From NCBI GenBank assembly GCA_025060615.1, contig JANXBS010000012.1:62001-126000 (forward strand): DNA of 64,000 bases, read 5' to 3'. The notes below the pieces were generated by a model that saw only the letters and a program-made list of their open reading frames with translations, did not search any database and had not been told where the DNA came from. Of the stretch, positions 58,586 to 62,680 are shown in pieces. Position 1 is the stretch's first letter. Each line of letters begins with the position of its first letter. The translations under genes were made by a program, and so were the position numbers. This DNA is from Anaerolineae bacterium. GTDB lineage: Bacteria > Chloroflexota > Anaerolineae > DUEN01.

Positions 58586-59665
58586 TCACCGCCCTGACAC
58601 CCCCCAATCAATGGAAGGAACGCCCTTTACCAAATCTTGGTATGTGATCAGCAACATCAGAGTGAACAGCAATGCCATGCCAATCAAATGGACCATCCCT
58701 TCTTTCTCTGGGTCTATCCGCCGCCCGCGGATTATCTCCACCACGATGAATAAGAGACGGCCACCGTCCAGAGCGGGCAATGGGAGCAGATTGGTGACTG
58801 CCAGCGCAGCGCTCAGGACCGCCACAAACTGCAGGATGGGAAACGCCATGCCAGCGGCAACTGAGGCTTCGACTGCGCCGCTGGTCAATTGGGCGATCCC
58901 CACGGGACCGATCGGGCGTGCCGCTTCTGCTGGGATCAGTCCACGCAACAGCAGGATAGGCAACGAGAGGGTGATGAGGACAAAGGAGACTGTAGAGCCC
59001 AGACCGTAGACGAATGCTTGCCCCAGTGGCAGCCGCCGAATCTCGCTCGCCTGTTCGATGGAGATGCCCATCGGGCCCTCACCCGGGGGGGGAGTCACCC
59101 GGGGCGTGACGTGAATGGTCAAGATCTGGCCATCCCGGCGGATGGTCAACGCCACCGGCTGTCCGGCCTGCGCAGCCACCACTCTTGTGATATCGCTGGG
59201 GACTCTAACCGGCTCCTCTGCGATAGCCGTGATAATGTCGCCCGGCTGTAGCCCCGCCACTTCCGCAGGAGAGCCGGGAGCAACAGCCGTGATCACAGCG
59301 CCCGACGTAGGCATCGGTTGGCCCAACATGAACGAAGCCGTAAATAGCAACACGGCTAACGCAAAATTCATGCCTGGCCCTGCCAACAACACAGCCGCCC
59401 GCGCCCGCTTCGACTTAGAGGCGAAGCTGCCCGGTCCCTCACGGCCATCCTCCCCTCGCAGGCGTACAAACCCACCGAAGGGAATGGCGTTCAGCGTATA
59501 CAAGACCCCTTTATGCCGAAACAGGACCACTAGACGAGGTGGGTAACCCAGGCCAAACTCCTCAACGATGATCCCTTGACGCCTGGCTACAATGAAATGA
59601 CCAAACTCGTGAGCCAATACTAGCACGCTGAGAACAATAAAAAACGCAATCGCGGTAATCCACAT
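58586..59665 (-). CDS. rseP: RIP metalloprotease RseP (site-2 protease)
   Basis: 359-aa intramembrane zinc protease. TM1 contains HEFGH (residues 19-23); a PDZ domain (PGSPAEVAGLQPGDIITAI) is near 130-200; the third metal ligand lies in NLLPLPALDGGRL. It cleaves anti-sigma or other membrane proteins after a first cut. ATG 59665 follows GGGGAG by about 6 nt. A probable promoter is at 59726-59754. No dxr or bamA homologues, its usual neighbours, are in the window; the next gene encodes the zinc-ribbon/LysM protein. Confidence 0.95.
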   Translation of the reverse strand: MWITAIAFFIVLSVLVLAHEFGHFIVARRQGIIVEEFGLGYPPRLVVLFRHKGVLYTLNAIPFGGFVRLRGEDGREGPGSFASKSKRARAAVLLAGPGMNFALAVLLFTASFMLGQPMPTSGAVITAVAPGSPAEVAGLQPGDIITAIAEEPVRVPSDITRVVAAQAGQPVALTIRRDGQILTIHVTPRVTPPPGEGPMGISIEQASEIRRLPLGQAFVYGLGSTVSFVLITLSLPILLLRGLIPAEAARPIGPVGIAQLTSGAVEASVAAGMAFPILQFVAVLSAALAVTNLLPLPALDGGRLLFIVVEIIRGRRIDPEKEGMVHLIGMALLFTLMLLITYQDLVKGVPSIDWGVSGR

Positions 59666-60027
59666 GTTCACTCCCCGTGTCTAACCATCCTTCGAACAGA
59701 CTCCGATCAGGTGTCTGTATACTTAATCGTATCTTTGAGGAAAGGCATATTCAACGGAAGACGTAGGGGGAACCCTCTCTGAGAAAACCTTCTCGCAGCC
59801 TTTGTCCACCCTCTCCTGGCCTAGCTAGCCCTCCCAGTAGGCCAGGAAAGGCAAGTAAAAAAGCTGTTTAAAAGCCTTTCCGAAGGACCTCCTCGTTTTT
59901 TTCCATCACGCCCAGGCGCAATAGTACCTATATAGCTATGTCCCTTCCGTCGGAGATTATACCCGGTTTCATAGGGGGTGGCAAGGCCAGGCACCAGTTT
60001 ATGGACTTTTGGCTTAACCAGGTTAGC
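59666..60027. other. Intergenic region, 362 bp, with a repeat copy
   Basis: Contains the rseP promoter at its left, then an inverted repeat CCTGGCC...GGCCAGG (59815-59845) and a core TCCGAAGGACC (59879-59889) shared with the 33.8-kb element, followed by a run of seven T. No coding frame or RNA gene was recognised. The T run after a short imperfect stem might end plus-strand transcripts, but no plus-strand gene is nearby. Confidence 0.5.
59726..59754 (-). promoter_or_regulatory. Probable promoter of rseP
   Basis: Minus strand TTGAAT (59749-59754), 17-bp spacer, TACGAT (59726-59731), 61 bp before the start codon. Each hexamer matches consensus at 4 of 6 positions. Confidence 0.45.
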
Positions 60028-60846
60028 TCACCGCCTGTAGCGAATCCGCGTGCCGGTCGGATACTCCGGATCCATCAACACTTGGGTTAGACGTCCCGGC
60101 ACCTGGCCGCTGATCAAGTGCACTTCCAGTTCCGGCATGCGCTGGATGAGCTCGCACATAGTCATCACCTTGCTGGCCATGCCGCCCGTCACATCCACTC
60201 CCATTCCTTCTCCCAAATCGAGCTCGCCGGCTGCGATGGCCTTGGGGGATAGCCATGGGATAGGACGGGCCATCGGATCCCGCAGAGGATCGGCAGTGAA
60301 CACGCCATCCACTTCGCCAACCAGGATGATGCGACGCGGCCGTAGCCGGGGAGCCAGAAAGGCGAATAGCTCTTCCGTCGAGGCAATGGTGCCGCCGCGT
60401 ACCTCATCCAGCGCCACATCCCCGTAGATGAGAGGCACCAGCCCTGCGGCGAGCGCGCGTTCGATCGTCTCCCAGCCTAGCGAGATCAACACCCCTTCGC
60501 GGCAACGGGCCGTCGCCGAGGGTTGGATAGACCACGCAGGCAAGTGAGCTGCCAACATCATATCCGTCACCAGCCGATTCAGCCGGGCCGCTGCAGCTGC
60601 CGTCTCAGCAAACCCTCGCCAGCCCTCCGCGTTATGCACGCCTGCCCGCGTTCCGTAGCGTTGCCCCACCACGTGCCCAAAAGAGCCGCTGCCGTGTCCC
60701 AACAATAGGTGCAAATCCGGCCGCGCCGCTCGTGCCTGCGCCAGCTCCTCGGCCAGACGGGCGATCACTTCCTTCCGCACTGTAAAGGGGCGCGCCTTGT
60801 CGGTGATCAGCGATCCGCCCAACTTGACGAACACCAGCTCGCTCAT
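60028..60846 (-). CDS. Isopentenyl phosphate kinase
   Basis: 272 aa, amino-acid-kinase fold. KLGGSLITDK (K8 phosphate-binding), GHGSGSFGH (H51-H58, with H58 at the position of the conserved catalytic His of archaeal enzymes) and GDVALDEVRGGTIASTEE are diagnostic of isopentenyl phosphate kinases. It phosphorylates isopentenyl phosphate to isopentenyl diphosphate, the last step of archaeal-type and some Chloroflexota mevalonate pathways. ATG overlaps the upstream DUF126 stop (ATGA). The neighbouring aconitase-X subunit suggests the anhydromevalonate route rather than phosphomevalonate decarboxylation. Confidence 0.93.
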   Translation of the reverse strand: MSELVFVKLGGSLITDKARPFTVRKEVIARLAEELAQARAARPDLHLLLGHGSGSFGHVVGQRYGTRAGVHNAEGWRGFAETAAAAARLNRLVTDMMLAAHLPAWSIQPSATARCREGVLISLGWETIERALAAGLVPLIYGDVALDEVRGGTIASTEELFAFLAPRLRPRRIILVGEVDGVFTADPLRDPMARPIPWLSPKAIAAGELDLGEGMGVDVTGGMASKVMTMCELIQRMPELEVHLISGQVPGRLTQVLMDPEYPTGTRIRYRR

Positions 60847-61265
60847 GCTGAAACTTCGTCCTCATCCCGCCAAACCATTACAACGCCATTCTCCACGCGC
60901 ACCCAATCGCCGGTGCGAATGCGCTCGATATCCACCTGATCCACCATGGGGATGTCGGCGAGGATGGCCCCTACCGCGACGATGGCCTCGCTCTCGCGAT
61001 TGATCATAGCCGCCGGGGCGTGACCACTGTATCGTAAGCGCAGGATGGTGTAAGAGCCCACCGTGCTCCCCTTGCCGCTGGGGAAGACCAGCACGCGACC
61101 AGTGATGTCCTGGCCTTGCAGCGGATGCCCTGGCTCGATCACGATGCCGGTATCAGGGTCCACGCCTCCTAGAAAGCCGATGGGCTCCGACGACACCAAC
61201 GCAATCCCTTCAGCGCGGCCAGTCCGAATCACCCGGCCCTCCAGGCGAACCGCCTCCTTACCCAT
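60843..61265 (-). CDS. Aconitase-X swivel domain protein (DUF126), probable phosphomevalonate dehydratase small subunit
   Basis: 140-aa small subunit. GRVIRTGRAEGIALVSSEPIGFLGGVDP is the usual DUF126 opening; VLVFPSGKGSTVGSY is the conserved Ser/Gly loop that contacts the substrate in aconitase X; APAAMINRESEAIVAVGAILADIPMVD follows. In archaea the protein works with the DUF521 large subunit to dehydrate (R)-5-phosphomevalonate. In other bacteria the family includes cis-3-hydroxyproline dehydratases. Overlap with isopentenyl phosphate kinase favours the mevalonate role. The large subunit is not in this window. ATG 61265 overlaps the SelA stop by 8 nt and has GGAG 8 nt upstream. Confidence 0.88.
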   Translation of the reverse strand: MGKEAVRLEGRVIRTGRAEGIALVSSEPIGFLGGVDPDTGIVIEPGHPLQGQDITGRVLVFPSGKGSTVGSYTILRLRYSGHAPAAMINRESEAIVAVGAILADIPMVDQVDIERIRTGDWVRVENGVVMVWRDEDEVSA

Positions 61266-62655
61266 GGACACGCTCCCAGGCAGCCCGCACAACTGCTAGC
61301 AGCTCGGCCTCTTCCTCCGGGAACACCGTGCGCGGGTCCAGCCACACCTTGTCCTCTGCAATACGCACCACCACTGGCGGATCCCCCTCGCGCAAAGCGC
61401 GCCCTAACGCCTCGGCCGAACGGGGTGATAAGACCACCGCTGTGGTCGGCAGGGTCTCACCGGGCAACGAGCCGCCGCCGATAGCGGACTCCGCTGGTGC
61501 TACGCTCGCCGCGATGCCCATCTCTGCAAGCAGGGAGGCCCATCGCTGGGCCCGCGCCGTCAGCTCATTCGGCGGCGTCGCGATCATGCGCCATACCGGG
61601 ATCTCCCGCTCTGCCTCGCCGCGCAGGTAGTGCAGCAGCGTGGCCTGGAGGCCAGCTAGCGTGAGCTTGTCCACCCGCAGGGCGCGAGCCAGCGGATGAC
61701 GACGTAGCGCCTGAATCCAGTGGGCGCGCCCGACGATCACGCCGGCCTGCGGCCCGCCTAACAGCTTGTCACCGCTAAACGTCACCAAATCGGCGCCAGC
61801 AGCCACGCTTTCCTGCACACGCGGCTCTGGCGCCAACCCGTAGGCGGTTGTGTCGAGCAGCGAGCCGCTGCCCAGGTCGTCCACCACCGCTAGCCCGTGC
61901 TCGCGGGCCAGCGCCACCATCTCGGCCAGCGATACCTCAGAGGTGAAGCCAATGATGCGGAAGTTCGAGCGATGAACGCGCAATAGCGCGGCCGTCTCCG
62001 GGCGGATGGCCATCTGGTAATCACGCAGATGGGTTCGGTTGGTGGTGCCTACCTCCACCAGCCGGGCACCGCTTTGCTGCATCACCTCGGGCACGCGAAA
62101 GCCGCCGCCGATCTCGACGAGCTGGCCACGGGAGACGATTACCTCGTGTCCTGCAGCCACGCCTGCCAGAGCCAACAGCACCGCCCCCGCATTGTTGTTG
62201 ACCACCAACGCGTCCTCAGCCCCGGTGAGCTGCCGCAGCAGTGTGACCGCATGCTCGTAGCGGGAGCCGCGTTGGCCAGCGGCTAGATCATACTCCAGGT
62301 TCGTGTACCCCCGCGCTGCCGCGATCATGGCTTCTTGCGTCGCCCGGCTCAGCGGCGCCCGTCCCAGGTTCGTGTGGATGATGACGCCAGTGGCGTTAAT
62401 GAGGCGCCGCAGCGAGGGCCGGATAACCCGGTGCACTTCGGCCAGAGCATCCTGGGCCAGCTCATCCAGTTCAGGACACGTCTCTCCATCCAGGATCGCC
62501 TGACGGGCGCGCTCGACAGCAGCGCGCGCCGCGCTTGTCGCCAGCTCCTGCCCCCACTCGGCGATGACCTGGGCCAGCGCTGGCGTCTGGAGCAGGCGAT
62601 CCACGCTTGGAAGCTTTCTCAACTCTTCATGCACATCCGAACGATCTCGCCCCAT
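61258..62655 (-). CDS. selA: L-seryl-tRNA(Sec) selenium transferase
   Basis: 465-aa PLP enzyme converting Ser-tRNA(Sec) to Sec-tRNA(Sec). INATGVIIHTNLGRAPLS, the central VEVGTTNRTHLRDY and K297 in TFSGDKLLGGPQAG (the PLP Lys, near K295 of E. coli SelA) are present; length is typical. ATG 62655 (GAGGG about 10 nt upstream) is preferred over GTG 62664. selB, selD and selC are not in the window. Its 8-nt overlap with the aconitase-X gene places selenium and isoprenoid functions in one transcript, which has no known logic. Confidence 0.95.
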   Translation of the reverse strand: MGRDRSDVHEELRKLPSVDRLLQTPALAQVIAEWGQELATSAARAAVERARQAILDGETCPELDELAQDALAEVHRVIRPSLRRLINATGVIIHTNLGRAPLSRATQEAMIAAARGYTNLEYDLAAGQRGSRYEHAVTLLRQLTGAEDALVVNNNAGAVLLALAGVAAGHEVIVSRGQLVEIGGGFRVPEVMQQSGARLVEVGTTNRTHLRDYQMAIRPETAALLRVHRSNFRIIGFTSEVSLAEMVALAREHGLAVVDDLGSGSLLDTTAYGLAPEPRVQESVAAGADLVTFSGDKLLGGPQAGVIVGRAHWIQALRRHPLARALRVDKLTLAGLQATLLHYLRGEAEREIPVWRMIATPPNELTARAQRWASLLAEMGIAASVAPAESAIGGGSLPGETLPTTAVVLSPRSAEALGRALREGDPPVVVRIAEDKVWLDPRTVFPEEEAELLAVVRAAWERVHG

Positions 62656-62680
62656 GCTGAACACGCCCTCGTGGGAGATT

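Follow-up and report, generated by a model that had tools for sequence, protein, structure and literature searches.

The anhydromevalonate (tAHMP) route to isopentenyl diphosphate (IPP) was established in Aeropyrum pernix by Hayakawa et al. (2018), as described in the review PMC10040528; the same review called the route unique to archaea and stated that the genes of the two AcnX subunits usually lie in tandem or as neighbours. In bacteria, the archaeal route was reported by Kanno et al. (2024, AEM 90:e0110624) in Candidatus Promineifilum breve, cited in the 2026 review PMC13001223, whose passage on the subject notes the route for some Chloroflexota on this single case. The pathway is thus not new in kind for a Chloroflexota bacterium. 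Members of the Chloroflexia use phosphomevalonate decarboxylase (PMD) and isopentenyl phosphate kinase (IPK) (Dellas et al. 2013, PMC3857490), and a 2024 survey gives Chloroflexota the haloarchaea-type route (PMC11052028).

In the window, the whole 64,000-nucleotide stretch of an Anaerolineae genome analysed here, the gene of an AcnX small subunit (AcnXS, DUF126) overlaps an IPK gene on the minus strand, the stop codon of the former and the start codon of the latter sharing ATGA (the minus-strand junction from DUF126 to IPK reads TTTCAGCATGAGCGAG). This overlap had been pointed out in a sequence-only reading of the window and is borne out by the coordinates and by the matches of both genes to curated models (Table 1). 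In the order of transcription, the pair follows selA, which shares 8 nt with the DUF126 gene, and precedes an rseP-like gene after a gap of 356 bp; no tRNA-Sec, nor any other tRNA, was found in the 64-kb window. The DUF126 gene likely starts with the ATG at 61265, preceded by GGGAG, by eye a plausible ribosome-binding site, and not with the TTG at 61292 where the mechanical open reading frame begins. The best solved relatives of the kinase are archaeal-type IPKs (7n9d, 7lnt and 3ll9), and the GAGSFGHVI motif known from solved IPKs lines up with its GHGSGSFGHVV, which may include the key active-site histidine of the H60 type.

Table 1. Location of the features discussed. Plain numbers are positions in the window; L, G and C are our handles for loci, genomes and contigs.
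Feature	Location	Strand	Profile match or remark
RseP-like site-2 protease, conserved neighbour downstream of IPK; outside the pathway	58586..59671	-	PF02163 and PDZ
Isopentenyl phosphate kinase (IPK), 272 aa	60028..60846	-	NF040647 IPPK_Arch 165 bits (cut-off 120); PF00696 114 bits
AcnX small subunit (DUF126 / UPF0107), 140 aa from ATG; predicted small subunit of phosphomevalonate dehydratase	60843..61265	-	PF01989 119 bits (cut-off 27); NF003046 164.9 bits (cut-off 163)
selA, L-seryl-tRNA(Sec) selenium transferase; outside the pathway	61258..62664	-	TIGR00474 592 bits (cut-off 268)
AcnX large subunit (DUF521)	C13:76633-78024
P5C dehydrogenase	L002:8034-9629
UbiX (prFMN synthase)	L211:8728-9327		NF004685 266 bits (cut-off 188)
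HMGR-HMGS-thiolase-DUF35 cluster, contig C23	L210:5995-10204		HMGR TIGR00532; HMGS TIGR00748 539 bits
Polyprenyl diphosphate synthase-like gene and type 2 IPP isomerase (IDI-2)	L006:9191-11392		IDI-2 TIGR02151 427 bits
Polyprenyl synthase of the preceding row	L006:9191-10222
Cluster of MDD, AMPD, AcnXL, AcnXS and UbiX, family f2	G072:C1:190628-194635 (L015, L053, L181)
Fused AcnX	L134:7348-9162
Fused AcnX	L132:7316-9166
Fused AcnX	G372:C1:3837630-3839303
AMPD-like gene, Candidatus Diapherotrites archaeon contig	L166:5998-7299

The finding of an AcnX small subunit beside IPK had led the sequence-only reading to propose that this lineage may use the archaeal variant of the mevalonate pathway or a hybrid. 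Profile searches of the window genome (a draft of 3.86 Mb in 73 contigs, 97.8% complete) favour the former, since they returned candidates for an archaeal-type set of HMG-CoA synthase (HMGS), HMG-CoA reductase (HMGR), mevalonate kinase (MVK), phosphomevalonate dehydratase (PMDh), the decarboxylase of trans-anhydromevalonate 5-phosphate (AMPD), IPK and IPP isomerase (IDI), spread over at least four loci; a hybrid route is not needed to explain this gene set. The separate large AcnX subunit (AcnXL) is encoded by the only DUF521 gene of the genome, at a locus unlinked to the window pair, and the DUF126 gene is likewise single, which leaves neither subunit with another candidate partner. On contig C13, the gene of MVK (TIGR00549, 247 bits, cut-off 163) lies directly upstream of that of a UbiD-like protein of 453 aa, which carries all three UbiD-fold domains (PF20695, PF01977 and PF20696) and scores above cut-off only with the general UbiD model TIGR00148 (351 bits, cut-off 245); its linkage with MVK, AcnX, IPK and UbiX makes it the candidate AMPD. 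A second UbiD gene, on contig C14 beside a UbiA-like gene, was ruled out as AMPD because it encodes a menaquinone-type decarboxylase (TIGR03701, 619 bits, cut-off 496).

Both UbiX and HMGR are present, the latter encoded together with an archaeal-type HMGS, a thiolase and a DUF35 protein; the second-best model of the thiolase is the acetyl-CoA acetyltransferase NF053570 (411 bits, under the cut-off of 600). This four-gene cluster resembles the genes of the archaeal HMG-CoA synthase complex, yet it stands in a bacterium. About 1 kb past the end of the window begins a polyprenyl diphosphate synthase-like gene followed by that of the type 2 IPP isomerase; in NCBIfam, the synthase comes closest to the family 2 encapsulin cargo polyprenyl transferase, at 336 bits, which falls short of the cut-off of 450. 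Neither PMD, sought by its C-terminal domain (MDD/PMD, here MDD_C), nor DXP reductoisomerase (DXR) was found in the window genome by searches that matched the positive-control genomes, and the PMD and MEP routes were set aside on this ground, although in a draft genome such absences are not absolute. A complete PMD pathway lacking the anhydromevalonate decarboxylase was one of two signs which the sequence-only reading had said would tell against its proposal.

The MVA5P-binding residues of Thermococcus kodakarensis (Tk) AcnX (7cnr/7cns) and the cis-3-hydroxy-proline-binding residues of the Agrobacterium enzyme have been described by Watanabe et al. (PMC8184944). When 74 AcnX large subunits were aligned, that of the window genome equalled Tk PMDh at all 15 positions compared. 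Among these, the cluster cysteines and the catalytic Glu and Lys are kept (C161, C352, C409, E181 and K429 for Tk Cys110, Cys283, Cys342, Glu129 and Lys361), as are the phosphate-loop residues (A89-G90-V91-S92-N95 and N121 for Tk Ala47, Gly48, Val49, Ser50, Asn53 and Asn79). By way of common conserved motifs, the cysteines and the glutamate also match Cys122, Glu145, Cys297 and Cys356, which were mutated in the A. pernix enzyme (residues from PMC10040528). The small subunit agrees at 4 of 4 positions, L32-S67-T68-V69 corresponding to TkAcnX Leu27, Ser62, Thr63 and Val64, where type I has Trp, Ser, Cys and Thr. Identity to the Tk enzyme is 46% for the large and 53% for the small subunit (67/126 to 7cnr_B), compared with 38% for each to the type I hydroxyproline enzyme, which shares superfamily and fold. 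These residues mark the AcnX pair as a predicted phosphomevalonate dehydratase of type IIb, and not as an enzyme of the hydroxyproline type.

A catabolic, hydroxyproline-type function of the pair would fit with two observations. The NCBIfam model nearest to the large subunit is C3LHyp dehydratase, though at 337.7 bits the match is far under the cut-off of 700, and the gene of the proline-catabolic P5C dehydrogenase (P5CDH) is divergent from the large-subunit gene at a distance of 4 bp, an arrangement kept in one other same-family genome. The type I residues that bind the ring or the nitrogen of proline (Asp203, Ile206, Trp35 and Thr72) are, however, replaced by those of PMDh, and the third cluster cysteine, C352, is present where the type I enzyme 7cnp has Ser. 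In the AcnX tree, a group of IIb-like and fused sequences splits from a hydroxyproline-like group with an SH-aLRT of 100%, and the true hydroxyproline-type AcnX that also occur in the class form a clade of their own. P5CDH was not found beside the large subunit in genomes of other families with a covered upstream flank, so its adjacency is probably local synteny, shared with mutL and a fabF-like gene. A hydroxyproline function would, moreover, leave neither PMD nor DXR for making IPP. Placement of DUF521 in a hydroxyproline cluster, named in the earlier reading as the sign that would speak against an archaeal route, is therefore approached only superficially and in one family, and hydroxyproline catabolism was rejected as very improbable on residues, clade and non-conserved neighbours.

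Gene content, orthology, residues, gene order and co-occurrence, all observed directly in the genomes, make it very probable that the window pair codes for IPK and the small PMDh subunit as two parts of a complete archaeal (anhydromevalonate) pathway; its catalytic activities are predicted, as is its role as the sole IPP route of this bacterium. In this pathway, the thiolase, HMGS and the DUF35 protein would convert acetoacetyl-CoA to HMG-CoA, HMGR would reduce the latter to mevalonate and MVK would phosphorylate it to mevalonate 5-phosphate. The heterodimer of the large and small AcnX subunits, with an Fe-S cluster, would then dehydrate mevalonate 5-phosphate to trans-anhydromevalonate 5-phosphate, which the UbiD-family AMPD, with prenyl-FMN made by UbiX, is expected to decarboxylate; IPK would yield IPP, and the type 2 isomerase DMAPP.

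The predicted pathway has in common with that of A. pernix a heterodimeric PMDh whose cluster and substrate residues are identical, a UbiD-family candidate AMPD, UbiX, MVK and IPK, as well as the archaeal-type upper part (TIGR00748 HMGS, thiolase and DUF35). It differs in its bacterial host, in the unlinked AcnX subunit genes and in the coupling of AcnXS to IPK, with selA before them. With the Roseiflexus and haloarchaeal pathway it shares the conversion of mevalonate 5-phosphate to isopentenyl phosphate and of the latter to IPP by IPK and, in the case of Roseiflexus, the phylum, whereas the ATP-dependent, GHMP-fold PMD of that pathway is absent here. The sequence-only reading had noted that the described Chloroflexota kinases are linked to PMD, unaware of the earlier report of the archaeal route in one bacterium of the phylum. 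Being archaeal in type, the enzymes might also come from archaeal contigs binned with a bacterial genome, but their genes sit among bacterial selA, rseP, ftsH and mutL, the contigs being 60 to 140 kb long and alike in G+C (0.59-0.63), and contamination, to which we give practically no credence, is refuted because the arrangements recur across family and class in independent MAGs.

These arrangements were followed by annotating the loci of relatives, and the stretches around DUF126 genes, with the window genome's own proteins. On contig JAGVRI010000007.1 the order is UbiX-AMPD-AcnXL-AcnXS-IPK, the first genes overlapping; four other loci read AMPD-AcnXL-AcnXS-IPK-RseP, and another has MVK-AMPD and a kinase-like gene followed by AcnXL-AcnXS-IPK. 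The order SelA-AcnXS-IPK of the window recurs in all three other same-family genomes and in several other families, with RseP next in most cases where the stretch extended to it and MVK-AMPD elsewhere. The pairing of AcnXS with IPK, found in most of the relatives examined, is more than chance, and the window pair appears to be what is left of a larger gene run, AMPD and the large subunit having presumably moved elsewhere. In one genome of family f2, MDD, AMPD, AcnXL, AcnXS and UbiX lie side by side, placing both decarboxylation routes in a single cluster; three other genomes also carry both.

The distribution of the two routes was surveyed in 199 genomes of the class, representing 52 family-level groups, where proteins that share at least about 48% identity with the query and stand clearly apart from other UbiD proteins were taken as AMPD orthologs. 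AMPD was found in 83 of the 199 genomes, AcnX in 89 and MDD_C in 96. Nearly all AMPD-bearing genomes also have AcnX (77/83, Fisher p 2e-34), and only 11 have MDD, against 72 with AMPD alone and 85 with MDD alone (odds ratio 0.06, p 7e-18). Counted by family-level group, AMPD occurs in 29 of the 52, MDD in 33 and both kinds of gene in 11. When genes were permuted within mixed families, the deficit of double carriers was modest (11 versus 13.9 expected, p 0.017), and the class-wide exclusion of AMPD and MDD is thus partly phylogenetic. IPK exceeded the cut-off in 171 of the 199 genomes, a frequency to be expected of an enzyme in which either route would end. Of 9 AMPD-bearing genomes that were checked for UbiX, 2 gave no match. 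A separate, phylum-wide sample of 400 genomes contained AMPD at 46% identity or more in 11, of which 10 belong to this class.

The frequency of MDD_C in the class, together with the route shown for Chloroflexia, could mean that the window lineage too proceeds through PMD and IPK in the manner of haloarchaea and Roseiflexus, its AcnX and UbiD-like proteins serving elsewhere. This is, however, a highly unlikely reading, as MDD_C is lacking in the window genome and in three other genomes of the family, and AMPD and AcnX co-occur in the class and largely replace MDD. We consider it probable, though less firmly than the assignment of the window pair, that the anhydromevalonate pathway is a major and old route in this Chloroflexota class, which has for the most part taken the place of phosphomevalonate decarboxylase, one lineage after another; one branch would have a fused dehydratase, and another a split one that has been rearranged.

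The fused AcnX, of about 600 aa with the large part first, adjoins AMPD in the Promineifilum-type genomes G144 and G372. Its domain order is 1-2-3-4, compared with 4-1-2-3 in type I and the split of type II. Its active-site motif is intermediate: the third cluster cysteine is retained, as is the Gly-Val-Ser loop, next to other differences (SGVSTNCESNCCEKY; small part LSSV). The fused proteins form one clade on a long branch of the AcnX tree, and the AMPDs of the genomes that carry them form one subclade within the Chloroflexota AMPD clade. Phylum and overall pathway are common to these genomes and the window lineage, and AMPD is 61-65% identical; the fused AcnX, in contrast, is only about 33% identical, its residues differ in part, and the AcnX of the window lineage is of the split type IIb. 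For P. breve itself, dehydratase activity was reportedly obtained in vitro and decarboxylase activity through carotenoid production in E. coli.

Compared with that single case, the present data add breadth (29 family-level groups), a predicted heterodimeric dehydratase whose subunit genes are unlinked, and conserved operons. The survey suggests that a rarely reported bacterial version of the pathway is common in this class. With about two fifths of its genomes carrying one decarboxylation route, about half the other and several families both, the class lends itself to testing how lineages exchange the step from mevalonate 5-phosphate to isopentenyl phosphate. Of the two routes, the archaeal one costs less ATP and depends on prFMN and on an Fe-S enzyme that is labile. 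For isoprenoid engineering, the class offers many bacterial PMDh/AMPD sets, and it has a bearing on the debate over inter-domain transfer of the mevalonate pathway.

Besides Chloroflexota, the AMPD search of genome contigs returned one Diapherotrites locus. This AMPD-like gene is on a contig with a G+C of 0.42 and flanks that look archaeal, and its product, 56% identical to the query, groups inside the Chloroflexota AMPD clade, a possible case of inter-domain transfer.
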